Source: Tolypothrix bouteillei VB521301 (GTDB taxonomy: Bacteria > Cyanobacteriota > Cyanobacteriia > Cyanobacteriales > Nostocaceae). From it: a DNA stretch of 64,000 bases. The translations under genes and the position numbers were made by a program. Numbering within the stretch: position 1 is the first letter of the stretch; each line of letters opens with the position of its first letter. The notes under the pieces were generated by a model. The model did no database searches. It was given only the letters and a program-made list of their open reading frames with translations, and had not been told where the DNA came from. Location: the NCBI RefSeq assembly GCF_000760695.4, contig NZ_JHEG04000001.1:7687617-7751616 (forward strand), read 5' to 3'. Shown here one piece after another: positions 12,101 through 61,780 of this stretch.

Positions 12101-12307
12101 GATATCAACTCCCTTGTGGCTCCACCTGCGGAAGAACTGGCGATTTTGCTTCATTTAGCAATGAAAGGTGACCTCAAAAGTATTGCTAAACGATCTGTAG
12201 AATTAGAGAAATTGGATGAACAATTTGTACCTTTTGCTAACCATTTGCGCCAACTTGTTGAAGGTTTCAAAAGCAAACAAATACTGGAATTCTTGAGAAA
12301 ATATTAA
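6188..12307 (+). CDS. giant Ser/Thr kinase - AAA ATPase - GAF - hybrid histidine kinase
   Basis: This 2039-residue signalling protein joins two kinase types, as in the HstK-like family of heterocystous cyanobacteria. A Ser/Thr kinase domain (about 10-280) keeps the lysine in [13 protein letters not shown] with the catalytic Asp, and an IDL metal site in place of DFG. A STAND/AAA-type ATPase follows, with Walker [10 protein letters not shown] near 335 and Walker [12 protein letters not shown] near 463. A long helical TPR-like region runs to about 1340, then a GAF domain (1350-1515). HisKA carries the phospho-His in [14 protein letters not shown] near 1571. HATPase (1675-1805) has DTGIGIP and [11 protein letters not shown]-terminal receiver (1831-1950) has VVDDK and the acceptor Asp in FMDLVM. 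A start at 6209 ([10 protein letters not shown]) is more likely than the first ATG. A palindromic repeat is inserted in frame in the ATPase domain of the histidine kinase. Confidence 0.92.
11325..11372 (+). repeat. palindromic repeat inserted in frame inside the HATPase domain
   Basis: The DNA has two direct copies of GGGAGACAA and an inverted counterpart (CCTTGTCTACCC). It encodes a low-complexity stretch ([18 protein letters not shown]) between two strands of the kinase ATPase domain. Such GGAGACAAGG / CCTTGTCTCC repeats are common between cyanobacterial genes. Here the length keeps the reading frame open. Confidence 0.6.
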
Positions 12308-35283: not shown

Positions 35284-35481
35284 ATTCAGTATTTTGCTTT
35301 GAAATAAATACTAGCCATTTTTCTAGGTACTCATCTCCTCATTTTTCTGATGTCAGCCTTAGGTGTAAAACGGCATTATCAATTTATAGCAACTGCATCC
35401 CGAACGCAGATAAGCACAAATAATATCCGCGTTTAGAGTGCAGTTCAAAATTCCCAATTCATCACTCCTTAGAGAAACAAA

Positions 35482-36414
35482 ATGCCTTCACCAGATACAT
35501 CAAATACCCTACTAGCCCTCTCCAACAATATAGCAGAAACAGTCGAGCAAGTTGGAGGCGCGATTGTTGCTATTAACTCTGGTTCCCGTATTTCCTCAAG
35601 CGGAATTCACTGGAATAATGGTATTATTATTACCTCAGACGAAGCACTCCACCGCTACGAAGATATTACAGCAACCCTATTCAACGGACAAACCGTACCA
35701 CTCAATCTTGTAGGACACGATCCCAGTACCGATGTTGCTGTTTTTAAATTGCAATCATCAGAAATTCCCGTAGCGCAGATTGGGGATGCGACAGCTCTCA
35801 AAGTTGGTCATCTCGTACTGGGATTAGCAAGAAGTAACGAAGGTGATATCCGTGCAGCAATAGGTGCTGTGAGTGTTGTTAGTGGTGCTTGGCGGAGTAT
35901 GAGCGGTGGCAATATTGACCAATTTATCCGTCCAGATATTACCCTATATCGTGGCTTTGCTGGAGGAGCACTCGTAGATGCTGCAGGTTATATTATCGGG
36001 ATGAACACGTCAGGAAGACGGGGTACAGCTTTGACTATTCCTGCTTCTACAGTTAATCGCGTGGTCAACCAGTTGTTAGCGAAGGGACGAATAACACGCG
36101 GTTATCTTGGTTTGGGAATGCAAGCCGTTCGTTTGCCGAATAATTTGAAAACAGCACTTAATTTAACTTCAGCAAGTGGTGCGATCGCTGTTAACGTGGA
36201 GCCAAATGGACCTGCTGACAATGCAGGTGTACTGATTGGGGATGTCATAATTACTTTCGATAATTCTGCGGTCAACGACACGGGTGATATATTGGCGCTT
36301 TTGAATAGTAGCGATCGCGTTGGGAAAACTGTGAAGCTACAAATTATTAGGGGTGGAGCGTTAGTTGAGTTAGAAATAGTCGTTGGTGAAAAACCAGTGA
36401 CTGGTGACCAGTAA
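35482..36414 (+). CDS. HtrA-like PDZ protein with apparently inactive protease domain
   Basis: The 310-residue protein has an S1C (HtrA) chymotrypsin-like fold (about 12-200) and one PDZ domain (about 205-300; RGYLGLGMQAVRL, then PADNAGVLIGDVIITFDN). Aligned by eye with HtrA, the catalytic His position in the TNNHVV stretch is Glu54 (TSDEAL). The Asp is kept (Asp84, STDVAVFKL). The GNSGGP serine is Ala160 (GFAGGAL). It is therefore probably a pseudo-protease that binds rather than cuts. No signal peptide is visible, so it should be cytoplasmic. It is the first of three close genes; the next encodes an intact protease 22 bases downstream. SD-like GAG lies before ATG 35482. Confidence 0.85.
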   Translation: MPSPDTSNTLLALSNNIAETVEQVGGAIVAINSGSRISSSGIHWNNGIIITSDEALHRYEDITATLFNGQTVPLNLVGHDPSTDVAVFKLQSSEIPVAQIGDATALKVGHLVLGLARSNEGDIRAAIGAVSVVSGAWRSMSGGNIDQFIRPDITLYRGFAGGALVDAAGYIIGMNTSGRRGTALTIPASTVNRVVNQLLAKGRITRGYLGLGMQAVRLPNNLKTALNLTSASGAIAVNVEPNGPADNAGVLIGDVIITFDNSAVNDTGDILALLNSSDRVGKTVKLQIIRGGALVELEIVVGEKPVTGDQ

Positions 36415-36436
36415 TTAGTAACCAGCGACCAAAATT

Positions 36437-36997
36437 ATGTTTCAAGATATAACAGCAGAGTTTGCAACGATCGCACGACAACTGCGTCAAAGTACTGTAA
36501 AAGTTCGCAGTAGTTCTTTTGGAAGTGGTTCCGGTGTTATTTGGCGAAGTGACGGGTTAATTATTACTAACGCTCATGTTGCCACTCATCATAAAGCAAT
36601 TGTAGAACTGTGGGATGGGCAAGTATATGAAGCGGTACGCATCAGTATCGATCCGACAAAGGATTTAGCTGCTCTAAAAATTGCCAGAACCGATCTACCT
36701 GTAGCAACTATTGGCAACTCCAATGCTTTACGAGTTGGGGAGTTGGTACTGGCTGTCGGTAATCCTTTTGGTGACAGTGGTGCTGTGACAAGTGGTATTA
36801 TCCATGCCAGCAAACAGCACGCAGTTATGGCTGATATCCAGCTCTTTCCTGGTAACTCTGGGGGACCGCTTGCTGATTGTCGCGGACGAGTTATTGGAAT
36901 TAACACCATGATTGCTTACGGTTTGGCTATAGCGATCCCCAGCCTGACAGTAGAGAATTTTTTACGCGATCGCCATCCCGTTGTGGGGGTAATATGA
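36437..36997 (+). CDS. trypsin-like serine protease (S1C), active triad, no PDZ
   Basis: A compact 186-residue protease with a complete triad: His47 in TNAHVA, Asp76 in TKDLAALKI and Ser141 in PGNSGGPL. It lacks the signal peptide, the long activation loops and the PDZ domain usual in DegP/HtrA, so it should be a cytoplasmic bare protease domain. The preceding gene encodes a dead paralogue carrying a PDZ domain. The two could pair, with the dead partner recognising substrates; this is inference. Its stop overlaps the next start by four bases (ATGA at 36994-36997), so translation with the response regulator is probably coupled. Confidence 0.88.
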   Translation: MFQDITAEFATIARQLRQSTVKVRSSSFGSGSGVIWRSDGLIITNAHVATHHKAIVELWDGQVYEAVRISIDPTKDLAALKIARTDLPVATIGNSNALRVGELVLAVGNPFGDSGAVTSGIIHASKQHAVMADIQLFPGNSGGPLADCRGRVIGINTMIAYGLAIAIPSLTVENFLRDRHPVVGVI

Positions 36998-37644
36998 TTC
37001 GGGTATTGGTAGTTGCTGCTTCCCCGGTAGTACGAGCGGGATTATCCGCCGTGCTTGCAACTAATTCCAAACTGATAGTTGTGGGTACTGCATCAGGCTT
37101 GGATAATTTAGGGGGAGAAATCGAGCAACTACAGCCCGATGTTGTACTGGTGGATTTGAGCAGTAATTTTCAACAATCGAGCTGGGAAAAACTGCTTTCT
37201 TTACAACAACAGCAAGATCCTTTTGTATGTCTCGTTCTTGCCGATGAACTTGATAGTATCGATCTTGTGGCTGGTTTGCGTGGGGGTGTGAGGGGTATAT
37301 TACCTCAAACCAGCACTGAATCAGAAATTATTGCTGCTGTTGAGGCTGTTGCTTTTGGGCTGGTAGTGCTGCACTTGGATGCTGTGGAATCTGTACTTGC
37401 TCTTAAAGATGCGAGTGGGCGAGAAAAAGTAGTCGCAACTCCCGTACAAACATTAACACCAAGAGAAATCGAGGTTTTAGAAATGTTGGGTGCGGGGATG
37501 GGTAATAAAGCGATCGCCAAACGATTGCAAATTTCCGAGCATACTGTAAAGTTTCACGTCTCTTCTATTTTCCAAAAATTAGGTGTTTCTACTCGTACAG
37601 AAGCGGTGGCTGTTGGCGTGCGCCTGGGATTGATTATGTTGTAG
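36994..37644 (+). CDS. NarL/LuxR-type response regulator with degenerate receiver
   Basis: The 216-residue protein ends in a LuxR-type helix-turn-helix (about 150-205; LTPREIEVLEMLGAGMGNKAIAKRL, HTVKFHVSSIFQKL), which should bind DNA. The N-terminal receiver is unusual. The acidic pair normally found in VDDHP is Ala8-Ala9 (VVAASPVV), and the conserved Lys near position 106 is replaced (ILPQTS). The acceptor-position Asp54 remains (VLVDLSS). Without the metal-binding acids, ordinary phosphorylation is doubtful. No histidine kinase gene is adjacent. It overlaps the protease gene by four bases, which suggests control by proteolysis or protein binding rather than by a phosphorelay. This last point is inference. 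Confidence 0.88.
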   Translation: MIRVLVVAASPVVRAGLSAVLATNSKLIVVGTASGLDNLGGEIEQLQPDVVLVDLSSNFQQSSWEKLLSLQQQQDPFVCLVLADELDSIDLVAGLRGGVRGILPQTSTESEIIAAVEAVAFGLVVLHLDAVESVLALKDASGREKVVATPVQTLTPREIEVLEMLGAGMGNKAIAKRLQISEHTVKFHVSSIFQKLGVSTRTEAVAVGVRLGLIML

Positions 37645-37828: not shown

Positions 37829-39178
37829 TTAAGTATTGCTTAGTAGTAATGTAACGGAGTATGAACCTAAGAGTAGTGGCTGTTGCAAAGCTGCTAAGCT
37901 CATCGATTTTGTAGTGACTCCGCGAGCATTTAAAGACAGCATTTGGAAATTTTTAGACTGAGTCAGCGCTCGCTTGGATTGCAGGCTCAACTTAACAGCT
38001 TGAGAAGATTTATTAATAAGCAGCAAACTGCGTTTGCCATCTGGTTTTTGTACTGCTAATGCTTCTACAAAAGGGTGATCGCTGGTTGTTTGCATGACCG
38101 AGCCTATCAAGTATTTATTTGCCCAACCAAATATTGTTGCCGGAGGTCGCAGTTTGTTGTTTGGGTCAATCATACCGTAAATTCCATCCTTAAGATGCCA
38201 GGAAGTTGCCATATCAACGCCTGTATCAGCAAGATGTTTCAAGACTGAAGCAAACCAAACTGCGCCTATATGGTTGTGCTGTCTTGTTTCGCCGGACGTC
38301 CACAAATAGTTGATATTGTATTCTCCGAGCAACAGAGGTACTGGACGTTCTGGTATATATTTCTTTGCGATCGCTCGAAAGTCCTTGACTTGACGTGCAT
38401 AGTTAGGTGTGTAAGACATAATCCCATCAGTAGGTTCTTTTGCATCTTTACTGCCATAACGATGCCAGGAGATAAAATCTACATTCTGCTTGCAGGCTGC
38501 AAGAAAAGCTTCCAATCTTCTTGAATTGTCCCACGTCAGCGCTGGTCCCCCTACCTTGATTTGAGGGTCAACAGCCTTCATTGCGTTTGCTACTTTATTG
38601 TAAATTATCCATAATTCGTCTAACTTCCAAGCTTTATCGTAAAGAACTTCTTTTTCATTCAACGGTTCCCAATAAATAACTTTTTTTTGAAGGCGACGGT
38701 TGAGAATTTCTACGAGTTGAGCACATAAGGTAGCATAGCGATCGTACTCGGACTTATCCAACAGCCCGTCTTTGCTCTGTGCCATCCACTTAGGCCAAGC
38801 AGGAAGATTTTGGATAATAGTAGGGTTGTGAGGATAGGAAGCATCGTACCCAGCTTTGATTTTGGGAATATTCCAAGTTTTGGTTGCAGCATCCGTCCAG
38901 CGATCGCATAATGCAGCGTGGTGAATGCGAATTAGCTTAATACCAAGTTCCTGAATATGATTTTGGAAAGTGCGATCGGCGGCACGTTCGGGAGACAAAA
39001 TTTCATAATCATTAGAACCAAAAGTAAACGGGGTAGACTTCGCGATTTGATTTGTCCAATCAATACTGACTTGAGCAGTTTTTTTAGATGCAGCTGTGGA
39101 AGATTTCCATACCGTATCCAACACTCCAAGCGTGACAGCACTAGCTGCGGTCAGTTTAATAATAGCTCTGCGTTGCAT
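37829..39178 (-). CDS. Tat-type exported glycoside hydrolase (GH39-like, clan A)
   Basis: The 449-residue protein starts with a twin-arginine-type signal (MQRRAIIKLTAASAVTLGVL). It then has a (beta/alpha)8-type hydrolase: acid/base Glu175 in YWEPLNE and nucleophile Glu286 in LLLGEYNIN, spaced as in clan A retaining enzymes. A C-terminal beta domain (about 365-449) follows, as in GH39. It is the last gene of the exopolysaccharide cluster, six bases from the kinase gene, so it may trim the polymer made by that cluster. PslG of Pseudomonas, a GH39 enzyme in the Psl operon, is a known parallel. Family placement beyond clan A is tentative. Confidence 0.8.
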   Translation of the reverse strand: MQRRAIIKLTAASAVTLGVLDTVWKSSTAASKKTAQVSIDWTNQIAKSTPFTFGSNDYEILSPERAADRTFQNHIQELGIKLIRIHHAALCDRWTDAATKTWNIPKIKAGYDASYPHNPTIIQNLPAWPKWMAQSKDGLLDKSEYDRYATLCAQLVEILNRRLQKKVIYWEPLNEKEVLYDKAWKLDELWIIYNKVANAMKAVDPQIKVGGPALTWDNSRRLEAFLAACKQNVDFISWHRYGSKDAKEPTDGIMSYTPNYARQVKDFRAIAKKYIPERPVPLLLGEYNINYLWTSGETRQHNHIGAVWFASVLKHLADTGVDMATSWHLKDGIYGMIDPNNKLRPPATIFGWANKYLIGSVMQTTSDHPFVEALAVQKPDGKRSLLLINKSSQAVKLSLQSKRALTQSKNFQMLSLNARGVTTKSMSLAALQQPLLLGSYSVTLLLSNT

Positions 39179-39184
39179 AAAGAT

Positions 39185-41215
39185 TTATGAGTTAGCTATG
39201 GGAGCATGGGAGGGTTGAGAATAGGGCGTAGTCTTGCTTTCTACTCCATTGATAACTAGACCAAAAATTTGGACATTATGTTGAGTCAGTTGTGCAAAAC
39301 TATCATTGACAGGGTTTTTGTAACTGCTATTTGGACGAATCACAAACAGCACATTGGAAATAATAGTAGCCATTAGTGCAGTTTCACTTGTTAAACTGAC
39401 TGGAGCACTGTCAACAATGACATAATCGTAATCTCCATTCTCTTCACAAGTTGCTAATACTCTTTCAAAGTGTCCTCGTTTGATCGTTTCCATAATCTTG
39501 CCTTCCTTAGGAAAACTTGGAAGCAGATCTAAATTTCGTTGTACCGCCACTTGCTCTACTGTAGATCCTGAAATATAACCCAAACGACGGCTAAGTTCAG
39601 ATCTCCGAAAATCTCCATCCACAAGCAGCACTTTAAAACCTAAATCCACTAAGGCATAAGCCAGTCCAATAGCAACTGTCGTTTTACCTTCTCCCATAAT
39701 GGCACTTGTTACTAACAACCGACGATTTTTGAGAGGTTGCAAGCTAATTGCAGAGGCAAGACGTTGAAACTCGACTTCTATTTCATTATTAATCACTTCA
39801 AATTTCGTAATAGAATGTTTCATCCGAGGAATAGTTTGCATCAGTGCAAATTTTCGAGCCTGTAGATCTTTGGCACTTAATAGGGGATTGCGACTTTCTA
39901 AAAATAAAACAAGAGCAATGCTACCAACAACAGATGCCAGAATAGCATTGATTGTCATTAACATTTTTTTTGGACTGATGGGCTTGGGATCGACCTGGGG
40001 TGCATCTAGAACCTGTACATTTGGATATGCATCAAAAGCGTCTATATTGTTTTGCTGGATTTGAGCTAGTAAACCATTATAAACACCAGCCGCAACATCC
40101 ACTTGTCGTTGTAGTTCTGACAGCTTTGCCTGATTTTCAGGTACAGATTTTAAGGTGTCTTTCAGTTGAGTAATTTGAGTGTCTAGTTGCCTTGCTTGTT
40201 CTTTAAGAGCGCTAGCTTCGCTTTCTGCCAGAACCAGTTGTTGAATTAAAGCAGCACGACCTTGAGGATAATTGGGCACTACTGTCGTGTCTACTCTTGT
40301 ACCATCTGCGGTTTGTGCAACATACTCTTGTAAAACACGTTGTAACTGTTTGCGTCGTATAAGTAGGGTTTGAATTTCTGGATGCTCATTAGTAAAGAGA
40401 GATTGTTTCTGACGTAAAGAGTTTTCTACATCAGATAAACGCTGACGTACAATTTGATATTCTTGGTTTTCACCCAAACTGAGAGAGCGAATTGCAGGAT
40501 CTGGTTTTAAATTTAAGCGTTTTGAAAGAACTTTGAGGCGATTTTCATTCGCCTTGGCAGAAGCTAAAGCTTCTGCTCTAGCATTGATTAAACTATTTAT
40601 TGTAGTAACAATACCTTTAGTTTGTTCTTCGTTGTTGACTATACCACTGGATTCTTTAAATTTTGCTAATTTGTTTTGTGCCAAAGTTAATTTTAATTTA
40701 ACTTGTTCCAGTTCTTGCTTATTGTATTCCTGGCGTGCTCGACTGTTAGCTTGCCGCAATTCATTTAAACGTTTTTGATAAGTTTCTGTTAAAACTATTG
40801 CTCTTTGTAATGCCAGTTCCGGGCTAGAAGCATTTACTGTTACCGATAAGATCGTAGATTGTTCCTCTGGTTTTACCGTAAACAGCTTTTTGTACTGAGT
40901 GATACTCTTAAATTTCTTTTTTTCCGGATCTACTGCTAACACCTTCTCTAGCAAAGTATCGCTATTGATAATAGATGCCTGTACATTGAGTGGATTGACT
41001 TCAGTGGAAAAACCAACTTCACCATTCCTTAAAGAACCAAGAGTTCCTAAATTAGCATCAAGTTTGCTATTGGTTTTAGGCAAAATCAGTTGTGTCCCTG
41101 CAACCCAAACTGGTTTAGCAGTTACAAGCGCAAAACCAGTGCTGAGAACAACAAACAAATTAAAAGCAATTAATAATTTCCATCGTCTAGTTACGATCGT
41201 CGCTATTTTATTCAT
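39185..41215 (-). CDS. Wzc-like polysaccharide co-polymerase with tyrosine kinase-type domain
   Basis: This inner-membrane protein controls chain length and export of exopolysaccharide. A Wzz domain follows the first membrane helix (about 14-35), with a long periplasmic coiled coil to about 410 and a second helix near 415-435. The cytoplasmic BY-kinase domain has Walker A IMGEGKTT (about 505) and Walker A' LLVDGDFR (about 531), and a Walker B-like YVIVDSAPV. The usual tyrosine-rich tail is reduced to a single Tyr (TTPYSQPSHAPIANS). Length is 676 residues. It lies between the polymerase and hydrolase genes. Regulation by autophosphorylation may be weak or absent. Confidence 0.88.
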   Translation of the reverse strand: MNKIATIVTRRWKLLIAFNLFVVLSTGFALVTAKPVWVAGTQLILPKTNSKLDANLGTLGSLRNGEVGFSTEVNPLNVQASIINSDTLLEKVLAVDPEKKKFKSITQYKKLFTVKPEEQSTILSVTVNASSPELALQRAIVLTETYQKRLNELRQANSRARQEYNKQELEQVKLKLTLAQNKLAKFKESSGIVNNEEQTKGIVTTINSLINARAEALASAKANENRLKVLSKRLNLKPDPAIRSLSLGENQEYQIVRQRLSDVENSLRQKQSLFTNEHPEIQTLLIRRKQLQRVLQEYVAQTADGTRVDTTVVPNYPQGRAALIQQLVLAESEASALKEQARQLDTQITQLKDTLKSVPENQAKLSELQRQVDVAAGVYNGLLAQIQQNNIDAFDAYPNVQVLDAPQVDPKPISPKKMLMTINAILASVVGSIALVLFLESRNPLLSAKDLQARKFALMQTIPRMKHSITKFEVINNEIEVEFQRLASAISLQPLKNRRLLVTSAIMGEGKTTVAIGLAYALVDLGFKVLLVDGDFRRSELSRRLGYISGSTVEQVAVQRNLDLLPSFPKEGKIMETIKRGHFERVLATCEENGDYDYVIVDSAPVSLTSETALMATIISNVLFVIRPNSSYKNPVNDSFAQLTQHNVQIFGLVINGVESKTTPYSQPSHAPIANS

Positions 41216-41387
41216 AAAGAGATTATAAATAGTTTATTCCTTCTACAAAGTGGAAATATCGAGAAATTTCTAAGAAACATAAAATAAACAAAATATTCGT
41301 CTATTAAAGACAGCTTTGGCAATGGTGAATATACTGAAAAGGATAGGGATCGGAGATCGGCACTCATTTGCAAATGGTCAATTCCTT

Positions 41388-42728
41388 TTAACTTTTCAGA
41401 TTCCCCGATAATTCCTGCCAATCTGAAACAGACTGAGGATAAGCTTCTGCAAGGATTGTGCCCAACCACAAAAAGTAGAACCAGAAATAAACAATCATCC
41501 AGCTTAAGTTAGTTGCTTGACACAGTATTAACAAAGCAATAAAGCTAGCAAATGCCCGTTGAGCAGTTCTTTTGCCTCGCAATGACGACTGCCAAAAAAA
41601 CCATAACGTTGTTGATACGGCAATGGCAAAGAATGCAAATCCAAACATTCCGTGTAAATACAGAATTTGTGCGTAAGTTGAAAAAGTCCCAAGAGGAAGT
41701 TCAAAAGCTCCGTTACCCCAGGTAACTGTTCGTTCGACAATTCCCCACCCAATCCATGGAGATTCCTTCCACGCCTTAAGAGTTGCAGCAACAACCAAAG
41801 CTCGGTCTTTTGATGAATCCGCTCGAGCTCCATTAAAAGTTTCCATGGGTTTGTCTAGTAACTCGGTTACCTCCATCCCTATGAGAGCACAAATAAAACA
41901 AATTAAGGTTGCAAACCAAAGGAAGCCTTGACGTGCTGAAGCTTTGCGAAAGCAAATGACTGCTAAAAGTGCTATCGGGAAACATATCCATGCTAGGCGA
42001 CTTTGAGCAATAATTAATGTTGCCGTGCAACCTGCTAAAGCATACTTACGTAAATATTTATCTGCTTCACCAAAGCACATAAAAAAGCACAACAGAGCAC
42101 AAACTCCTAGAATCGGTGGATCTGCAGTGTATAGCTCTGTCCGGGCAAGTGGAAGCCCAAAAAAGGGTTGGAACACTGCAAACTTAACCATTAAACTAAG
42201 TTTATCCCCTGGAATTGCTCTAGCCAGAGGTGGCATAATAGGTGGCTGCGGACCTGTACCAAATAAGATAAGGAGTTGAATGCTAAGGGATACTAAGTAA
42301 CCAGCTGTCATCCAAGAAACAGCCCTTGTCACAACACTCATTCTAATACGATGCCAAAAGGGCAGTGTTAGGCAAGAAAAAACTAAAAAGTAACCTTTTA
42401 AGAGCGTGACTACTGTAGCAGCACTTTTCATAGGATTAAAGCTCATTGACGATAACCCCTGGATGTTAGTCCACAGTACTGCTAGACTCAGTAACAACCA
42501 CGTCCAGTGACAAAGTGGTAGCGATCGCTTAACGAGTTTGTCTAAATGAAAATCATAAGCTAGCAAATAAAGAGCAACACCGGGATAAAGCAGAGTCTGT
42601 ACCCCCAAGACCCACCACAGCGGCGTTAGCACAATCGTCCAATAAACCACTCGTTCTGGATGTGACAGGTTTTCTAATTTGTTTTTTGCCTCTAAGAGAA
42701 TTAATTTCTTAGGGAATATATTAAACAT
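41388..42728 (-). CDS. O-antigen polymerase/ligase-like membrane protein (Wzy-type)
   Basis: A polytopic inner-membrane protein of 446 residues with about eleven hydrophobic helices. It has a large periplasmic loop with the O-antigen-ligase pattern around WKESPWIGWGIVERT (about 315-330), the place of the conserved H/E and Gly-rich motif of the Wzy_C family. It probably joins repeat units on undecaprenyl carriers. It lies between the glycosyltransferase and the Wzc-like kinase genes on the same strand, as expected for a Wzx/Wzy cluster. The assignment rests on topology, the loop motif and context, since these proteins diverge fast. Confidence 0.78.
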   Translation of the reverse strand: MFNIFPKKLILLEAKNKLENLSHPERVVYWTIVLTPLWWVLGVQTLLYPGVALYLLAYDFHLDKLVKRSLPLCHWTWLLLSLAVLWTNIQGLSSMSFNPMKSAATVVTLLKGYFLVFSCLTLPFWHRIRMSVVTRAVSWMTAGYLVSLSIQLLILFGTGPQPPIMPPLARAIPGDKLSLMVKFAVFQPFFGLPLARTELYTADPPILGVCALLCFFMCFGEADKYLRKYALAGCTATLIIAQSRLAWICFPIALLAVICFRKASARQGFLWFATLICFICALIGMEVTELLDKPMETFNGARADSSKDRALVVAATLKAWKESPWIGWGIVERTVTWGNGAFELPLGTFSTYAQILYLHGMFGFAFFAIAVSTTLWFFWQSSLRGKRTAQRAFASFIALLILCQATNLSWMIVYFWFYFLWLGTILAEAYPQSVSDWQELSGNLKS

Positions 42729-42752
42729 TTAAATTTTTTGAGAATGCCTCTT

Positions 42753-43682
42753 TTAAAGAGTATGAATTTCTTTATACTCCTCAAATTGTTTTCCTGCAAC
42801 ACCTGCTACCATTCCCAAACTGTGATAAATATATAATAAAGTTTTAATACCTTGATGTTGCCCCATCATAAAAGACAAAGGAATGGATAGTATACCTTTA
42901 AAAACTCGCCTAATTCCCTTGTAAATACACTGAGTTTTAACTGCAATTGATGGTTTTAAGTCTATTTCACAGAAGCTCTCTGTAATGCCAATTCGGTAAC
43001 TTCTTTGCAACAACCATTTTAAATTGGCGCGACTTTGAGGTATCCATTCATGTACTAGAGCATCATTTGTCCACACTATTTTATAGCCCGCACGTTGCAA
43101 TCGCATAAAAAAGTGCCAGTCAGAACCACCCGAAAGTGCCAATCTCTCATCTAGCCACTTATCTTGTTCTCTAAAAACTTCTACACGTATCAGTGTATTG
43201 TTGTTAGCTGCACTTTTCAGTTCATGACCTGTAGGATAACAGGGGCGATCGAAAAATTTTCCTTTGGCAAGCCAATTAGGAATAGAATGAGCAAAGTAAG
43301 GTATAGTTTTTCCCCATACAACATCAGCATTATATGAGCTTTGAACGTACAAAAGTTCATCCAGCCAATTGGGTTCGGGAACTTCATCATCATCGATAAA
43401 AGCGACAAAGTCTACATTTTCTGCAAGAGCACAAGTAATAGCTTTATTGCGTGCAAAGGGAATACCCCGCCGGGGTTCAATATAGCACTTTAAAGCCCAT
43501 TTAAATTCCGCACTGATTTCTTTACAGAATTTACAAGCATGACCGCTTGAATCATTATCAACAACAAGAACTTCTAGGTTAGGGGTTTCACAGTGATGGA
43601 AAGTTAATTGCTTAAGACCATCTAACAGTCGCTTCAATCCACCTGGACGCTGACAAGTATTTAAGCAAATAGCGACTCGCAT
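42753..43682 (-). CDS. family 2 glycosyltransferase
   Basis: A GT-A glycosyltransferase, probably adding one sugar of the repeat unit on the cytoplasmic face. The N-terminus has VAICLNTCQRPGGL and VLVVDNDSSG (donor site), then FIDDDEVPEPNWLDEL, which carries the DxD-type metal motif. A second part of the domain has GGSDWHFFMRLQRAGYKIVW, resembling the ED motif region. The ATG at 43682 has AGGAG four to five bases upstream and is clearly the start; an ATG 18 codons earlier lacks this. It is 309 residues long, with weak hydrophobic stretches near the C-terminus. Confidence 0.86.
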   Translation of the reverse strand: MRVAICLNTCQRPGGLKRLLDGLKQLTFHHCETPNLEVLVVDNDSSGHACKFCKEISAEFKWALKCYIEPRRGIPFARNKAITCALAENVDFVAFIDDDEVPEPNWLDELLYVQSSYNADVVWGKTIPYFAHSIPNWLAKGKFFDRPCYPTGHELKSAANNNTLIRVEVFREQDKWLDERLALSGGSDWHFFMRLQRAGYKIVWTNDALVHEWIPQSRANLKWLLQRSYRIGITESFCEIDLKPSIAVKTQCIYKGIRRVFKGILSIPLSFMMGQHQGIKTLLYIYHSLGMVAGVAGKQFEEYKEIHTL

Positions 43683-43811
43683 TTTTCTCCTGAGTTCAAC
43701 TGAAGCATCAAGGGATGAATAAGAATAACACATCAATAAATTGAGTAATTTCTAATTTCATTATGGATAAAAAATTTGTTTTTGATCCTTTGTGCTTTAT
43801 TCTTCGTTCTT

Positions 43812-45248
43812 TTATTTACTGTGCCATTTAGTTACTAAACGTTGCCGAATATAACTTAATGAATTTTGATATTGTAAAAATTCTTTGGCAGCTAATAAGC
43901 GAACAAATGCTAAATATAAAATTAGAAATAAGATGGGCTGTATAATAATTGGAAAATTTAAAGAAATCACAATTGGTAAAAGCGTTATTAAAGGTGCTTT
44001 AAACACAAAAATTAAAAACTTTTTATAAGACCAGTCTAATCGACGACAAGCCTCCCACCAACAGTAAATAGTCCAAATAATTCCTAAAACTACAGCTACC
44101 GCTATACTGACACCAATAATTCCGTTTATCTTGGCACCAATTGCAAAACTTAAGACAGCAACAGGAGCAATGCTAAGGCTTAGCTTCGCATTAACACCCG
44201 GTTTCCCTTTTGCAGACAGCATGGAAAAAAGCTGACTGTTTATCAGGCGCGAGTAAGCGAAAATGAGCAATCCTGGAATAACTGTACAAACAGGAATCCA
44301 GTGATTTCCAAAGATAAAGGCAATAGTTTGTTGGTTAACAACTAAAAAGAATAAGGCGTATAAGGGAGCAGCGAGGAAAGAAGTTTGTTCAATGACTTTA
44401 ACCAAAGCGTTTTCTCTCTGTTGGTCATCTTCTAATTGAGCAAACACCGACATCCCAACTTGGCTCATTGCCTGAGAAAGAATAGTTGTTATCGCCATTG
44501 TTAACTGGTAAGCAAGATTGTAAAAAGCAAGACTAGTAGTTCCTAGAACGATGCTAACCACAAAATTGTCACAGTTATAAATAACGAAATACCCCAAGCT
44601 AAACCCAGTATTGCCTAAACAATAAGACAAAACTTCCCATCTGACCTCTGAATAAATACGCAAATTGAATTTCTGTTTGGCATAGTGATGCATGAGAATG
44701 CACCCCGTAACCCAACCCGCAGTATCTCCTATGACAAAGGACCAGTAACTGAAACCCAGTAAGGCACTTCCAACCGTGGAAAATACTCTGACGAATGAGG
44801 CAATTAAATTAGAGTTTGCTAACTCTCGATACTGCATCCGTCTTCTCAAAACTCCTTCATGTACGGACTGGAATGAGGAGAGTATGAGATTAATGCCAAA
44901 TATCAGTAGTATCCATACTAGATCTGGTATGCTGTAGTAACTCGCTGCTAGTGGGGATATCAACCCAAGCACTAGAGCTAAAAAGCACCCAATTGCTAAA
45001 CTGATGGTATAGGTTGTGTCTAAATAACGCTTATCTTCAACGCCCTTATAAACGATAAAAGATCCAGATGTGCCTTGGTTAAATAGATTTCCAAAAGCCC
45101 AAAAAATGTAGGCAGTACTGATAACACCAAATTCATCTGGAAGCAACAGCCTTGCTAGCAGCAAGTTACTGAACAAGGCGAGGAAGCGTGTTGCGATCGC
45201 TCCATAGGTCGCCCAAAATCCATTTTTAAGTATAGCGGAAAGTTTCAT
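43812..45248 (-). CDS. lipopolysaccharide/oligosaccharide flippase (Wzx-type)
   Basis: A multi-pass membrane protein of about 478 residues with twelve or more helices. The N-terminal amphipathic lead-in (LSAILKNGFWATYGAIATRFLALFSNLLLARLL) and the FGNLFNQGTSGSF and FAYSRLINSQLF regions match MATE/MOP-superfamily flippases. It should move lipid-linked repeat units across the inner membrane. The start at 45248 overlaps the stop of the upstream glycosyltransferase by four bases (ATGA), so translation is coupled. An upstream ATG at 45371 would read 41 extra non-hydrophobic residues through the neighbour and is unlikely. Confidence 0.86.
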   Translation of the reverse strand: MKLSAILKNGFWATYGAIATRFLALFSNLLLARLLLPDEFGVISTAYIFWAFGNLFNQGTSGSFIVYKGVEDKRYLDTTYTISLAIGCFLALVLGLISPLAASYYSIPDLVWILLIFGINLILSSFQSVHEGVLRRRMQYRELANSNLIASFVRVFSTVGSALLGFSYWSFVIGDTAGWVTGCILMHHYAKQKFNLRIYSEVRWEVLSYCLGNTGFSLGYFVIYNCDNFVVSIVLGTTSLAFYNLAYQLTMAITTILSQAMSQVGMSVFAQLEDDQQRENALVKVIEQTSFLAAPLYALFFLVVNQQTIAFIFGNHWIPVCTVIPGLLIFAYSRLINSQLFSMLSAKGKPGVNAKLSLSIAPVAVLSFAIGAKINGIIGVSIAVAVVLGIIWTIYCWWEACRRLDWSYKKFLIFVFKAPLITLLPIVISLNFPIIIQPILFLILYLAFVRLLAAKEFLQYQNSLSYIRQRLVTKWHSK

Positions 45249-46210
45249 GGCTGCTTTTGGGTATATCTCACTGAACCAAGCGCTTGTCGAATTCCTAACT
45301 TGGCTAGTGGTGCCAAACGCACTGCAAGTAAAGTCAACAGCGATCGCGGATCGCTGTAAAAAATTGACCAATTACAAGCTAGAGCCCGGTTGATAAAGTG
45401 GCTGGCTTGGTCGAGATTCCCTCCTTGGAGAGACAATCTTGCTAAGTAGCGATACATATAAGCGTAGGCAGTTGGTAACATCGGTTCTACCAACTGTGGC
45501 GATCGCTCCATAGCGCTTTGAATCACCTGTTCGTTGCATCGCTGCATTTGTGCTACGTTGAAAGAAAGACCGGATGGACGAACGCGGTAGTAACATAAAG
45601 TCCTCTTATCGCGGTAGAATTGCCATTTTCTGGTTGTTGCGACTCTCAACCAAAAATCAATGTCTTCCGAACTGCGTAAGCTTTCATCAAATTCCCCCAC
45701 TTCATTTATTAATGAACGGCGGAAGACTGCATTAGAACCATGACCTACAAAATTCTTACAAAGTAAAGCAAGCAGTGGATCGGAATGAACGGGTTTACCA
45801 CTTAGGTAAATGGGTATCGGTTTTCCATCATCACGAATTGCTCTAGATGCACTATAAACAACCCCGATCTCTGGATAACGATCGAGGGTTGCTACGTGAC
45901 GGGCGAGTTTATCTGAGTGGTAGACATCATCTCCATCTAGTAAGGCAATATATTCTCCACGTGCATGACGGATACCGTGATTGCGTGCTGATGATAAACC
46001 CCCATTTTGTTTTTGCCATAACTGAAAGCGCGAATCGCTTTTTACAAAAGGCCGAACAATTTCTGCTGTATTATCGGTAGAACCATCATCAACAATGAGA
46101 ACTTCAAATTCTTGAAAAGATTGCTTTTGTAGCGATCGCAATGCATCTTCAATATAAGAACTTACGTTGTAGGCGGGAACTACAACGCTAACTTTAGGAA
46201 TAAAAACCAT
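45245..46210 (-). CDS. family 2 glycosyltransferase
   Basis: This 321-residue GT-A enzyme opens with VSVVVPAYNVSSYIEDAL. It has VLIVDDGSTDNT (donor base), ALLDGDDVYHSDKL (DxD type) and FRRSLINEVGEFDESLRSSEDIDFW, with the acceptor-side ED motif. It should work on the cytoplasmic face to build the repeat unit. The C-terminal helix-rich part (about 230-321) is of the kind seen in exopolysaccharide transferases. It overlaps the flippase by four bases and follows another glycosyltransferase by eight bases, within one operon. The sugar specificity cannot be told. Confidence 0.9.
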   Translation of the reverse strand: MVFIPKVSVVVPAYNVSSYIEDALRSLQKQSFQEFEVLIVDDGSTDNTAEIVRPFVKSDSRFQLWQKQNGGLSSARNHGIRHARGEYIALLDGDDVYHSDKLARHVATLDRYPEIGVVYSASRAIRDDGKPIPIYLSGKPVHSDPLLALLCKNFVGHGSNAVFRRSLINEVGEFDESLRSSEDIDFWLRVATTRKWQFYRDKRTLCYYRVRPSGLSFNVAQMQRCNEQVIQSAMERSPQLVEPMLPTAYAYMYRYLARLSLQGGNLDQASHFINRALACNWSIFYSDPRSLLTLLAVRLAPLAKLGIRQALGSVRYTQKQP

Positions 46211-46218
46211 AACTACAA

Positions 46219-47205
46219 TTACACTCCTACGCTCTCATATCCTGACTCCTTTGGAGGAGTTTGCTCGTGCGATACAGATTTGGGTTTCTTTGTTAAGAGA
46301 AGACGCAACCAAGTCCGTTTCTCTGTAGGAATCAGCCACATACCCAAACATAAAAAAATGTCCATTAGTTGAGGTTTACCAAAACGAATGGCTTCCCATA
46401 AAAGGAAGAAAAATGCTTTCCAATCACCAGTACGAGCAGCTCGCGCACTCACTTCTGCTAAAATAAAAGAGGAATAAGCTCGAGAAGTAACTAAGGAACG
46501 TTTTTCCCTAATCCAGTCCAATGAAAATTGCCAATTCTTGCTACTACTTAAAGTAGGACGCGCATCTCCTACATACCATATAGAAAGAACTTCTGGCACA
46601 AACTCAACTCCTACGCCCTCAACACTTACAGCTCGTAATATCCAATCCCAGTCATCATGTCTTTGTATTGCGATCGAAAAAGGAACTTTTTCCAATAACT
46701 CTTTTGCGGTAAAGATAGTTGAAGACTGAATAATACCTTCACCTTGAAATAAAGTCTTGCGAACAAACAAATATTCACTTAATGGCTCTGATATTTTAGG
46801 AACTCTTCTCGGCCAAATAGAATCTCCTTGTGGTGTTTGAGCTTTTAAATAACAGGATATAATGGGAAGCTTAAACTGGGAAAGTCTAGCAGTTTCAAGT
46901 TGCATTTCTAATTTTTTAGGCATCCATTCATCATCGTCATCTAAAAAAGCTAACCATTTGGCAGAAGCTGCCGAAATTCCAGTATTTCGCGCAACACGAG
47001 AACCTTGATTTGTAGGCAATTCTATCAGTCTCAGTCTAGAGTCATCAATTTCTGATAACGCAGTCCGAGTTTCTGGTTGTGGACCATCAATCACAACGAT
47101 GACTTCGATGTCTTTGAGTGTTTGTGCTAGAGCACTCATGACCGCTCGTTTAACTAATTGAGGTCTGCAATACGTCGGGATCACTACACTGACCAAAGGT
47201 TCCAA
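46219..47205 (-). CDS. family 2 glycosyltransferase, TTG start
   Basis: A 328-residue GT-A enzyme with VSVVIPTYCRPQLVKRAVMS, VIVVIDGPQPET, LAFLDDDDEWMPKKL and IQRHDDWDWILRAVSVEGVG. The start is a TTG at 47205. A strong AGGAGG eight bases upstream supports it, and no ATG in frame lies nearby. It is separated by eight bases from the next transferase and precedes the flippase and others. A 435-base gap to the WecG-type gene upstream suggests its own promoter. The C-terminus has a hydrophobic patch (about 275-300) that may bind the membrane. Confidence 0.88.
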   Translation of the reverse strand: MEPLVSVVIPTYCRPQLVKRAVMSALAQTLKDIEVIVVIDGPQPETRTALSEIDDSRLRLIELPTNQGSRVARNTGISAASAKWLAFLDDDDEWMPKKLEMQLETARLSQFKLPIISCYLKAQTPQGDSIWPRRVPKISEPLSEYLFVRKTLFQGEGIIQSSTIFTAKELLEKVPFSIAIQRHDDWDWILRAVSVEGVGVEFVPEVLSIWYVGDARPTLSSSKNWQFSLDWIREKRSLVTSRAYSSFILAEVSARAARTGDWKAFFFLLWEAIRFGKPQLMDIFLCLGMWLIPTEKRTWLRLLLTKKPKSVSHEQTPPKESGYESVGV

Positions 47206-47640
47206 GTCAATTCCCTCCTAATTTTTCTCTCAAACATGGCAGTACTAACGTCTGTTTTCTTTTTAAAAGAAGCTTTGTTCTAAGACGCTAGAAATTGTAA
47301 TGTGTGGTAATTAGCTCGGATAAATGCACTTATAAGAGTTTAAAAACCTGATATTTTTTTTAACGAACAAGCTAACAACAGTTATGGCACTTTTTTTCTA
47401 AAGTAGCATCCCAGATCTTTCGTAATTTGATTTTTTTTTCAAATTTTGTTTGACAATCAACAGCTATTCTAGTTTATTGACTTTGTCAACCGAAAAATTA
47501 CGGTAGCGCTTAACGATTACTCAAACCTTTGAGGATAGATAAAGATAAAACTTTCCCCCTCATACCAAATGGAAATAAGAAAAGGATAGCTAGTTAGATC
47601 GAGTTAAATTTATGAAAGGCTTTCTCAATCCAAAATTTTA
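47206..47640. other. AT-rich intergenic region within the polysaccharide cluster
   Basis: This 435-base gap lies between the WecG-type transferase and the TTG-starting glycosyltransferase, on the minus strand. It is AT-rich with several T-runs. A palindrome (TTGATTTTTTTTTCAA) sits near 47427-47442. The AGGAGG ribosome binding site of the downstream gene is at its start. Promoter boxes were not convincing. No gene was found. Confidence 0.4.
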
Positions 47641-48576
47641 TTAAATAGATGGGCTACTAGAATACAGTGCAGGCGCAACTGCAACAGGGATCTCCTGCTC
47701 TTGATTGCGATTGTTGAAATTTAAGTAAGAGTTACTGACAGGAACAGCAAGTTCTGGATTGAAAGTGTCAATTGATGATAAAAGTTCTACTCGTAGTGGA
47801 GTATAAAACTTGCCCAAAGCAACTTGCAGTGCAAAAGCTGGATTCCCAAGCAAATAACGAGCAGCTAAACGTTTTGGTTCGCGACACAAACGATACAACC
47901 ACTCTAAGCCTAAATCGGCAAGGGTTGATGGGCAATCAGGTATAACGCCTGCAAGTCTGTCAATCACTGCTCCACCAAGCAAAATAGCATTAACATCTAA
48001 GCGGAGGCGATGCTCGTAAACCCATTTTTCTTGAACTGGCATTCCCATACCCACTATTAATATGTTGGGCTTTTCACGATTGATTTTTTGAACAACTGTG
48101 TGGTTTTGCTGGGGATCTTGCTTGTCGAAATAACCGTGATGTCCGGCAAACTTAGCATTAGGATACTGATTTCTCAGATTTTGCAATGCAGTTTCTAAAT
48201 ATTCAGGTTTGGTTCCAAGGAGAAATACACTCAATCCTTTCTCGTTACATTTCTCCAATAATTTGGGCATCATCAGTGTATAAGAAGCTCGGTACTCCAA
48301 AGGCAAGTTTAACCCCATGTAACCAATTGCCTTTAAAATGCCCACGCTGTCACAATTGACTATTTCCGAACTTTGGAGAAAGTTATAATACCAAGGAAGT
48401 TGCATCGAAAGATTAAAACTGTGTACGTTGTAATTCGCAACAGTTATTTTTTTGTTAGAAACACATGCCGTATGTATGGCATCCACCAGGGAGGGGATAG
48501 TTATACAAGTAATGCGACGCTCTAATAAATAAATATTGAGATTTGGTAATTCTTGAATTTTAGGATTTATTATCAT
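47641..48576 (-). CDS. WecG/TagA/CpsF family glycosyltransferase
   Basis: The 311-residue protein belongs to GT26, which adds a sugar to a lipid-linked primer early in polymer assembly. It shows ANYNVHSFNLS near the N-terminus and VNCDSVGILKAIGYMGL with the catalytic-type Asp. FLLGTKPEYLETAL is followed by ILIVGMGMPVQEKW, where the donor is held. LLGGAVIDRLAG and GLEWLYRLCREPKRLAARY close the domain. The tail of about 45 residues is Pro/Ser/Asn-rich. It is first in order of the exopolysaccharide cluster but separated by 435 bases from the rest. The ATG at 48576 leads into residues close to the family start, though the N-terminus is somewhat extended. Confidence 0.9.
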   Translation of the reverse strand: MIINPKIQELPNLNIYLLERRITCITIPSLVDAIHTACVSNKKITVANYNVHSFNLSMQLPWYYNFLQSSEIVNCDSVGILKAIGYMGLNLPLEYRASYTLMMPKLLEKCNEKGLSVFLLGTKPEYLETALQNLRNQYPNAKFAGHHGYFDKQDPQQNHTVVQKINREKPNILIVGMGMPVQEKWVYEHRLRLDVNAILLGGAVIDRLAGVIPDCPSTLADLGLEWLYRLCREPKRLAARYLLGNPAFALQVALGKFYTPLRVELLSSIDTFNPELAVPVSNSYLNFNNRNQEQEIPVAVAPALYSSSPSI

Positions 48577-60594: not shown

Positions 60595-61683
60595 TCATAT
60601 ATCTACTGTCACAATTGAACCTTGCGGCTGATTATCTTTGATTGCGATCGCTCCACCGTGAGCTTCAGCTACCATTTTGCAAAATGTAAGTCTCAGCCCA
60701 ATTTGGGAAGCTCCACTTACCAAACTCCCTAACTCATACTGCTCGAGAATGGATTGCTGTAAGTGTTTGCTACTAGTTCCTTCATCGGTAATGGTAATAG
60801 TTGCTTGTTTGAGAGGTTCGGTTGTATTTGAATAATTAACGCGAAATGTAATCGTGCTCCCAGAAGGAGACGACTCAATTGCGTTAGTCAGGAGATTATC
60901 TAGCAAGCGCTGGAACAGATTGGTATCTATGGAGAGCCAGCGTCGTTGCTTTTGGAGTTCGGTTTTTAATTGTATTTGCTTGGAATTAGCGATCGCCTGA
61001 AAATTCGCTATGACTACTTCCACAAGTTCATTCAGGTCTACCTCAACGCGATTTAGCAATAACCTGTTCGATTCCATCTTCGCCAATCGCAATAAACCGT
61101 TGACGATCGCATCAATCTCCAGACCAGCTGCATAAACCATTTCTGCACGTTCCCGGTCTTTAGACTCTAGATTGCTTTGCAGTAATAAGTGGCTTCCCAG
61201 TAACAGAGTAGACATTGGTTGTCCTAAATCTTCCACCACTAGCTTAGATAAATCATGACGCAGGTTAATAGTGGCTTGCAGTGCATCATACTGTTGCTTA
61301 ATCCGCAGCATGGAACGGACACGAGCGCGTAATTCCAGCCCGTTAACGGGTTTTGTGAGAAAATCATCGGCTCCAGATTCTAAAGCACGTGCTAGATCTT
61401 CCTTAGAATCCAGCGCTGTTACTATAATAATGGGAATATGTTTCCAAAGAGAATTTGCCTTTATACGGCTACAGGTTTCAATCCCATCTATTTCTGGCAT
61501 CATTACATCCAGTAAGATAGCATCGGGAAGATTTGTTTCCAGACGGTTTAAAACTTCTTTGCCACTGTTATAGTAGTTCAGGTGGTATCCTTCGCGCCGC
61601 AGCAGCAACTCAATAACCTCAAATCCGTTTGGCTCATCATCAACTATCCACACAGATTGTTTGCGTTCCATTGCTCTTGCCAT
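60595..61683 (-). CDS. response regulator fused to a degenerate histidine kinase-like module
   Basis: The 362-residue protein opens with a receiver (about 8-125) keeping VDDEP, the acceptor Asp59 (ILLDVMMPE) and Lys111 (FLTKPV). A coiled linker leads to a DHp-like helix pair. There the usual VHDLRNP pattern reads VVEDLGQP: the phospho-His is Glu151. The ATPase-like domain keeps NLLTNAIESS (N box), but the DxGxG box reads DEGTSS and the G2 box is weak. Autophosphorylation is therefore unlikely. It may bind partner kinases or work as a phosphate-sensing adaptor. The kinase gene upstream (61781-64000) is on the same strand with about 97 bases between, so the receiver could be its target. ATG 61683 or the ATG four codons later may start it. 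Confidence 0.83.
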   Translation of the reverse strand: MARAMERKQSVWIVDDEPNGFEVIELLLRREGYHLNYYNSGKEVLNRLETNLPDAILLDVMMPEIDGIETCSRIKANSLWKHIPIIIVTALDSKEDLARALESGADDFLTKPVNGLELRARVRSMLRIKQQYDALQATINLRHDLSKLVVEDLGQPMSTLLLGSHLLLQSNLESKDRERAEMVYAAGLEIDAIVNGLLRLAKMESNRLLLNRVEVDLNELVEVVIANFQAIANSKQIQLKTELQKQRRWLSIDTNLFQRLLDNLLTNAIESSPSGSTITFRVNYSNTTEPLKQATITITDEGTSSKHLQQSILEQYELGSLVSGASQIGLRLTFCKMVAEAHGGAIAIKDNQPQGSIVTVDI

Positions 61684-61780
61684 TTGTTAGTTGTTAGTTG
61701 TTAGTTGTTATAGCAGTCGGTGTAGGAATTACAAACACCTTTTCCTTGTCCCTCTTGTTCGGATCTTAAATAGGATTGCT
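61684..61780. repeat. GTTAGTT heptamer repeats between the two signalling genes
   Basis: Several tandem GTTAGTT-type units occur at about 61685-61710, a short repeat type common in cyanobacteria. They lie just upstream of the response-regulator gene start. No clear promoter was seen. Confidence 0.55.

Follow-up and report, generated by a model that had tools for sequence, protein, structure and literature searches.

A candidate self-contained control circuit in cyanobacteria built on an HtrA-like PDZ protein, a pseudo-receiver regulator and a dedicated promoter element

How might an operon work that encodes an HtrA-like protein without a complete catalytic triad, an intact HtrA-like protease and a regulator whose receiver has lost phosphotransfer residues? 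We addressed this question for three plus-strand genes, G1, G2 and G3, of the cyanobacterium Tolypothrix bouteillei VB521301 (genome size 9.95 Mb; closest named protein matches in Scytonema species). They lie in a stretch of 64,000 nucleotides of contig NZ_JHEG04000001.1; this whole stretch is called the window, and coordinates refer to it. An original prediction, made from the letters of the window alone, had proposed a regulatory module in which a pseudo-protease directs a protease and a regulator freed from phosphorylation. Its coordinates, gene order and ATGA overlap of G2 and G3 (36994–36997) were all reproduced in our analysis, in which the genes were called from open reading frames by scripts and upstream starts were likewise script-chosen. 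We find that the core of the unit is G1 and G3 with a dedicated promoter element, proteolysis being optional, and that the G1-G2-G3 unit looks like an undescribed self-contained control circuit. The coding features are:

35482..36414, plus strand: G1, HtrA-like protein with a PDZ domain, a pseudo-protease (Glu54, Asp84 and Ala160 at the catalytic positions; predicted fold with a predicted local distance difference test score, pLDDT, of 92.7)
36103..36378, plus strand: PDZ domain of G1, residues 208-299 (Pfam match; conserved carboxylate-binding-loop region GYLG at 207-210)
36437..36997, plus strand: G2, predicted HtrA-like protease, without PDZ in this lineage (intact His47-Asp76-Ser141; 186 amino acids)
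36994..37644, plus strand: G3, NarL-type regulator with a pseudo-receiver and a LuxR-type helix-turn-helix at residues 152-206 (Ala8, Ala9, Asp54, Pro104; predicted fold, pLDDT 87.2)
37627..37641, plus strand: GLIML C-terminus of G3, a candidate PDZ ligand (tail length and terminal Leu conserved)

G1 was found in 115 of the 217 genomes of the window's family (E <= 1e-60) and in 63 of 388 sampled Cyanobacteriia genomes. Downstream of it, among 68 representatives of a named set (the best 80 of 434 relatives, selected with a PDZ-loop pattern), we found G3 in 65 and G2 in 54; one of the three without G3 (L162) reaches its contig end inside G2. In a clustering of neighbours across the 80 named loci, every other flanking family recurs at 7 loci at most. 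Seen from the side of G3, the best 61 matches in the 388 genomes each lie in a genome of their own, and 59 of these 61 genomes belong to the 63 that have G1; this cut was set by eye at 163.6 bits, and the next match, at 163.0 bits, comes from a genome without G1. As for the other four G1 genomes, two (G141, G223) have a lower-scoring G3 beside G1, in G006 G3 is cut by the contig end, and G276 has a shortened G1 and no G3 that we could find. The make-up of the unit varies more than this pairing: among 105 units, 47 combine a G1 lacking catalytic residues ("dead", that is, His54 or Ser160 missing in the alignment, Thr for Ser included) with G2, 29 combine a catalytically complete ("live") G1 with G2, and in 24 with dead G1 and five with live G1 we did not find G2. 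The conserved three-gene linkage presumed by the original prediction thus holds for G1 and G3, across cyanobacteria and contigs binned to other phyla, but not for G2, which was not found in 29 of the 105.

The contigs binned to other phyla number nine: Acetothermia (L106), Chloroflexota (L123, L149), Acidobacteriota (L147, L162, L183), Gemmatimonas (L168) and Eremiobacterota (L172, L178). They are possibly mis-binned, as their origin was checked by guanine-plus-cytosine content and tree place only. In all nine, G1 keeps His and Ser; seven have the order G1-G2-G3 (the contig of L172 ends within G3), and L183 is without G2. In the G1 tree, eight of them form two clusters with no cyanobacterial member, with Shimodaira–Hasegawa-like approximate likelihood-ratio test (SH-aLRT) values of 80, which is weak, and 96, and L106 stands alone beside a large dead clade. 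A further HtrA-like gene directly follows G3 on the Acetothermia-binned contig (L106:10505-11413).

HtrA/Deg proteases form trimer-based oligomers and act without ATP. The window G1 has their domain order, a trypsin-like domain followed by PDZ (Trypsin_2 and PDZ_2 both above the Pfam cut-off), and the solved structures nearest to its predicted fold are MucD, DegQ, Deg1, DegS, AlgW and HhoA. It lacks their His-Asp-Ser triad: as originally predicted, Glu54 replaces His and Ala160 replaces Ser while PDZ is kept, to which we add that Asp84 of the triad is retained. Its best match to the curated NCBIfam models of the Do/HhoA/DegS families reached 158.9 bits, against a cut-off of 416.2. In an alignment of the query and its close homologues, all 120 rows have Glu54 and Asp84 and 112 of them Ala160, so Glu54 and Ala160 are not there by chance. 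Of the wider set of 105 orthologues, 34 have His and Ser together, the other 71 lacking one or both. In a class sample of 63 rows (62 G1 orthologues and the query, after seven duplicate loci had been dropped), position 54 is His in 34, Glu in 14, Tyr in nine, Asp in three, Gln in two and a gap in one, and position 160 is Ser in 32, Ala in 14, Leu in nine and others in eight.

We placed the 105 orthologues and four other HtrA proteins of the own genome in a tree, computed in "quick" mode with SH-aLRT support only and with the catalytic columns included. The live/dead label needs seven changes on it, at least four of them forced by starred branches, and a starred clade of 52 rows, which includes the query and every row with a Nostocales genus in its record title, is dead throughout. 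Replacements differ by lineage (Glu/Ala, Tyr/Leu, Asp/Ser, His/Asp). The loss of catalysis is thus old in the lineage of the window, and it occurred repeatedly. By a simple pairwise count, the ratio of nonsynonymous to synonymous substitution rates (dN/dS) for G1 is 0.08-0.35 in 14 dead pairs, which argues that dead G1 is selected and no relic, and a single live pair, in which dS is saturated, gives 0.12; the ratio is 0.08-0.37 for G2 (13 pairs) and 0.05-0.21 for G3 (14 pairs). Intact orthologues, which had been named in advance as a sign of recent decay, do exist, yet the loss is old. On the residue conservation in close homologues, the old dead clade and dN/dS well below 1, we rejected recent decay.

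The PDZ domain is kept even where catalysis is lost. As the named set had been selected by the loop pattern, we judged the GYLG region on rows from searches independent of that pattern: both Gly and the Leu are invariant and Tyr is present in at least 90%, and in a further G1 comparison all four residues are invariant. This region is among the most constant parts of G1, whereas the catalytic residues come and go. Within the first 60 residues, 103 of the 105 G1 orthologues have no 19-residue stretch with a hydropathy above 1.6, and the maximum by the same measure is 0.66 for the window G2 and 1.97 for the window G3. The proposal that all three proteins are cytoplasmic therefore agrees with hydropathy, the only evidence used, for G1 and G2, but the measure is uninformative for G3.

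G3 is a DNA-binding regulator by its GerE match (LuxR-type helix-turn-helix; 75.7 bits, cut-off 23.5), and its Pfam Response_reg match, at 23.7 bits, stays below the cut-off of 30.2. The solved structures nearest to its predicted fold are LiaR, VraR and ChrA, with NarL lower in the list. At the places of the receiver residues DD, D, T/S and K it has Ala8 and Ala9, a retained Asp54, Ala83 and Pro104, that is, a receiver fold without phosphotransfer residues, as expected of a pseudo-receiver. The motif VVAASP (residues 6-11) and the missing Lys had been recognised correctly; Pro104 aligns with the Lys of NarL LLKD. Asp54 aligns with the Asp of NarL LLDL, the phospho-acceptor of NarL, and is kept in the window and in 118 of 120 close-homologue rows. 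All 120 of these rows have Ala8 and Ser10, and 118 of them have Pro104. Position 8 is acidic in none of 59 readable rows of the class sample, and Pro104 is present in 52 of 58; in the named set with the query, position 8 is Ala in 73, Ser in two and Gly in two, and position 104 is Pro in 61, Ser in 11, Ala in two, Leu in two and Lys in one. Nearly all members thus lack the Lys and the first of the two metal-binding acids, and the pseudo-receiver is the constant feature of the unit.

The C-terminus of G3 is strict. In 91 of the 93 orthologues that could be read, the tail GL(I/V)xL ends exactly 12 residues after a TEA motif, and over the 93 the last residue is Leu in 86, Ile in four, Phe in one and Gly in two; the two odd tails belong to L036, which runs off the fetched locus, and L165, which has an early stop (four further rows cut before the TEA motif were left out of this count). 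Among 27 other regulator-profile matches in the own genome, this tail length recurs in four, with Leu as the last residue in one of them.

Upstream of G1 we found a tandem element, absent from the original prediction, which points to self-regulation of the operon. It comprises:

35311..35327, plus strand: operator-like element unit 1, CTAGCCATTTTTCTAGG, exact consensus
35335..35352, plus strand: operator-like element unit 2, CTCCTCATTTTTCTGATG, which repeats unit 1 in the same orientation 24 bp further on
35374..35379, plus strand: -10-like hexamer CATTAT, 21 nucleotides after the element, with a presumed promoter role

Word counts 5' of G1 gave the consensus CTAGCCATTTTTCTAGG, about 7 nucleotides, CTCCCCATTTTTCTGATG, as direct repeats 24 bp apart. 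The window element (35311-35352, 42 bp) has one mismatch to it, with no such site expected from 100 shuffles, and occurs once in the 9.95-Mb genome when up to three mismatches are allowed. We then scored orthologous upstream regions with a two-block model (spacer 5-9 nucleotides) trained on 71 of the 104 regions scored: 94 of the 104 exceed the maximum of 1,040 single-base shuffles and 96 that of 1,040 dinucleotide shuffles, and the 33 held-out regions pass the two controls in 23 and 25 cases, respectively. Among the 94 elements the spacer is 7 nucleotides in 71, 6 in 22 and 8 in one. A [CT]AnnnT hexamer lies exactly 21 nucleotides downstream in 79 of the 94, compared with 0-3 at every other offset from 8 to 27, and in the column counts we saw no conserved hexamer where a -35 box would usually lie. 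A degenerate pattern with a fixed 7-nucleotide spacer and up to three mismatches matched 26 sites in 26 of the 388 genomes, and its reversed control none; of these sites, 24 immediately precede G1, one sits on a decayed G1 remnant, and one is unrelated. The remnant (L236/L242, G095:C41:30823-30864) consists of the element and a short G1 start whose frame soon meets a stop, with no G2 or G3 found in the surrounding 11 kb. The sole exception (L218, genome G136) was rejected as a local repeat with three mismatches beside an unrelated gene, with no G1, G2 or G3 found in the 11 kb that surround it. Seven of the nine contigs binned to other phyla also pass the two-block model (L168 and L178 fail); of these seven, L106, L123 and L162 were in the training set and L147, L149, L172 and L183 outside it. 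An RNA element was considered and discarded, as Rfam gave just two matches below the gathering threshold (E 0.42 and 0.76) and the element lies 5' of the -10-like box. In three loci of the G1 Tyr/Leu lineage (L060, L063, L068), G3 has a changed helix, LSEHTIKYHTSAIF, and the end of unit 2 reads GGGG for GATG; this co-change, a single event, is suggestive.

Our favoured reading, to which we give an even chance, is that the operon works as a self-contained circuit that dispenses with ordinary phosphorylation, in which G3 would drive its own operon through the element and G1 would govern G3. We infer that G3 binds the 42-bp element and activates, or less likely represses, the operon, because it is the only DNA-binding protein of the unit. 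The element is best read as the operator of G3 since it is single-copy, stays with one operon over long distances and lies directly 5' of the -10-like box; the absence of a visible -35 hexamer and a position typical of class II activators argue for activation. The recognition helix of G3 (SEHTVKFH) and the element share their near invariance. With less certainty than for DNA binding by G3, G1 may stand in for the kinase of an ordinary two-component system: through its PDZ domain it would hold or release G3, whose conserved hydrophobic -GL(I/V)xL tail is a plausible ligand, and C-termini of misfolded or cleaved cell proteins would compete for G1, thereby freeing G3. That PDZ domains of the HtrA type bind the C-termini of proteins is established and is stated in passages of a 2016 review (PMC4877387), and peptide complexes of DegS and AlgW are among the fold matches of G1. 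We propose this binding of the G3 tail, in competition with exposed C-termini, with modest confidence. G2, and G1 where catalytic, would then be output proteases with a level set by the circuit; in the window unit, G2 is predicted to be the sole intact protease. A broader proposal, which we consider speculative and rather doubtful, is a kinase-free class of signalling: an HtrA-like PDZ protein, whether or not it keeps catalysis, would replace the sensor kinase, read C-termini and switch a dedicated pseudo-receiver activator by tail competition, in a cassette that moves between phyla with its operator. What stands of the module originally proposed is a conserved unit without ordinary phosphorylation machinery and with a dead G1 under selection; that it directs a protease is not a defining trait, as 34 of 105 G1 keep His and Ser and G2 was not found in 29 of 105.

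Several observations weigh against the circuit. Proteolysis within the unit is not always needed, because in 24 of the 105 units G1 is dead and we found no G2. Neither G2 nor G3 was found downstream of G1 in L115 and L160, and the gene order in L015 is G1-G3-G2. Of the Ala-Ala pair expected in the receiver, position 8 is non-acidic throughout, but at position 9 an Asp or Glu preserves the second acid in 16 of the 59 class-sample rows, and position 104 is Lys in one of 77 named rows; weak phosphorylation of G3 may thus be possible, all the more here with Asp54 kept. The G3-type tail is not unique to G3, being present in another regulator of the own genome (L189). Ten of the 104 upstream regions stay below the control maximum, some at contig ends or with a changed spacer, and the fixed-spacer pattern was found in just 24 of the 63 G1 genomes, the rest needing the looser model. 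The element co-varies with G1 distance (r = 0.23, p = 0.0005), and a partial Mantel test of the element against the G3 helix-turn-helix, controlled for G1 and receiver distances, was negative (r = 0.065, p = 0.18), with low power as the helix hardly varies. Finally, TACYYMT is the heptamer of Escherichia coli NarL; we rejected it for the element, with exact matches in 15 of the 94 elements against 4.3 expected from shuffles, a modest excess only.

A first alternative places the weight on G2, with dead G1 as its allosteric partner or targeting subunit and G3 as a merely co-transcribed regulator of expression. It has a precedent in the magnetosome proteins MamO and MamE, where a dead HtrA-family protein stands beside a live one, and NCBIfam MamO and MamE are among the weak matches. 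Further in its favour, dead G1 accompanies G2 in 47 of the 105 units, and G2 is nearly always intact. The complete triad without PDZ that had been noted for the window G2 was confirmed by Pfam and its length; His47 and Asp76 are present in 121 of 121 rows of close homologues and query and Ser141 in 120 (one Tyr), and readable named rows have His47 in 64 of 64 and Ser141 in 63 of 63. Yet 24 units have dead G1 with G2 not found and 29 have live G1 with G2, so a fixed pair of dead G1 and live G2 is not the conserved state. In contrast to MamO and MamE, the live partner is dispensable here, and the constant partner of G1 is a transcription factor. We therefore regard this explanation as unlikely. 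A bare G2 is likewise no defining trait: judging PDZ presence by length, 61 of 76 G2 proteins (at least 245 amino acids) are long enough to have one, 13 (171-244) are not and two are shorter pieces, which makes the PDZ-less form a lineage variant. The 61 PDZ-length proteins end in Ala-Ala in 29 cases and in Ala-Thr in 10, which could be a degradation or a PDZ-binding tail.

Similarly improbable, in our view, is a simple stress-protease operon with G3 as a constitutive or dosage-controlled autoregulator, and G1 and G2 serving cytoplasmic quality control without contact to G3. A dedicated single-copy element fits such an arrangement, and control of pseudo-receivers by expression level alone is considered in passages of a 2025 review (PMC12632262). 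However, it leaves unexplained why G1 is retained with G3 after the loss of catalysis and why the C-terminus of G3 is so strict.

We think it very unlikely that the element serves another, widespread regulator or a sigma factor while G3 acts elsewhere in the genome. The negative partial Mantel test fits this possibility, as does a half-site search of the own genome that gave five matches, its own site included, against one in the control; we rejected a regulon beyond the own promoter there, as none rose above noise. On the other hand, 25 of the 26 matches in the 388 genomes lie at G1 or a G1 remnant, and the pass of seven of nine contigs binned to other phyla, four of them outside training, fits a cognate regulator moving with its site. 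That G1 and the receiver are mere relics of decaying genes is hardly credible: catalytic residues are lost in both, but Glu54 and G3 Ala8 are each kept in 120 of 120 close homologues, dN/dS is well below 1, and the dead G1 clade is old. Genuine decay does occur elsewhere, in genome G095.

How does the unit compare with known systems? Inactive and PDZ-less Degs are already known in cyanobacteria: according to passages of the 2016 review (PMC4877387), Nostoc punctiforme ATCC 29133 and Anabaena variabilis ATCC 29413 have inactive Deg peptidases, which cluster with PDZ-less Degs. By description these are probably the same proteins as G1 and G2; an operon with a regulator, a promoter element and a wider distribution of the pair do not appear in those passages. 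G1 shares a trypsin-like domain, a single PDZ and its nearest solved folds with the single-PDZ HtrA/Deg proteins (DegS, AlgW and cyanobacterial HhoA/HhoB/HtrA); unlike them, it lacks a hydrophobic N-terminal segment and, in this lineage, His and Ser, is encoded with a regulator and scores far below the NCBIfam cut-offs. G3 resembles the pseudo-receiver regulators NblR, BldM/WhiI, VpsT and RitR in its receiver fold without phosphotransfer residues, and the abstract of the 2025 review (PMC12632262) calls the activation mechanisms of such proteins a mystery. The words protease and HtrA are absent from the main text of that review, while the link of G3 to an HtrA-like protein is conserved here. 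For NfSrr1, a LuxR-family protein of Nostoc flagelliforme (PMC12157317) considered as a possible G3, our literature search found nothing deciding. Among the papers listed in our searches, subscription papers and preprints aside, we found no description of the combination of HtrA with a pseudo-receiver or of the element core.

The original prediction that no kinase is nearby agrees with the six nearest neighbours among the scanned reading frames (a subset of those in the window), none of which has a histidine kinase domain, but such domains occur elsewhere in the window (6188-12307, 60595-61683 and 61781-63937). The first is part of a 2039-amino-acid Ser/Thr kinase-AAA-GAF-histidine kinase protein, and the other two belong to histidine kinase/receiver genes (60595-63937), all far from the operon. 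A run of minus-strand genes (37829-48576), including one GH39-like and one Wzz-like gene, follows 3' of the operon.

Taken as a family, these units are a case in which HtrA-type catalysis has been dispensed with repeatedly while the PDZ domain and the genetic linkage stayed. Control of a pseudo-receiver by a partner becomes directly testable in them, since they pair a conserved partner protein with a dedicated promoter element, and some lineages have naturally lost catalysis or G2. If G1 does bind the tail of G3, this would be a partner-based switch for a pseudo-receiver.

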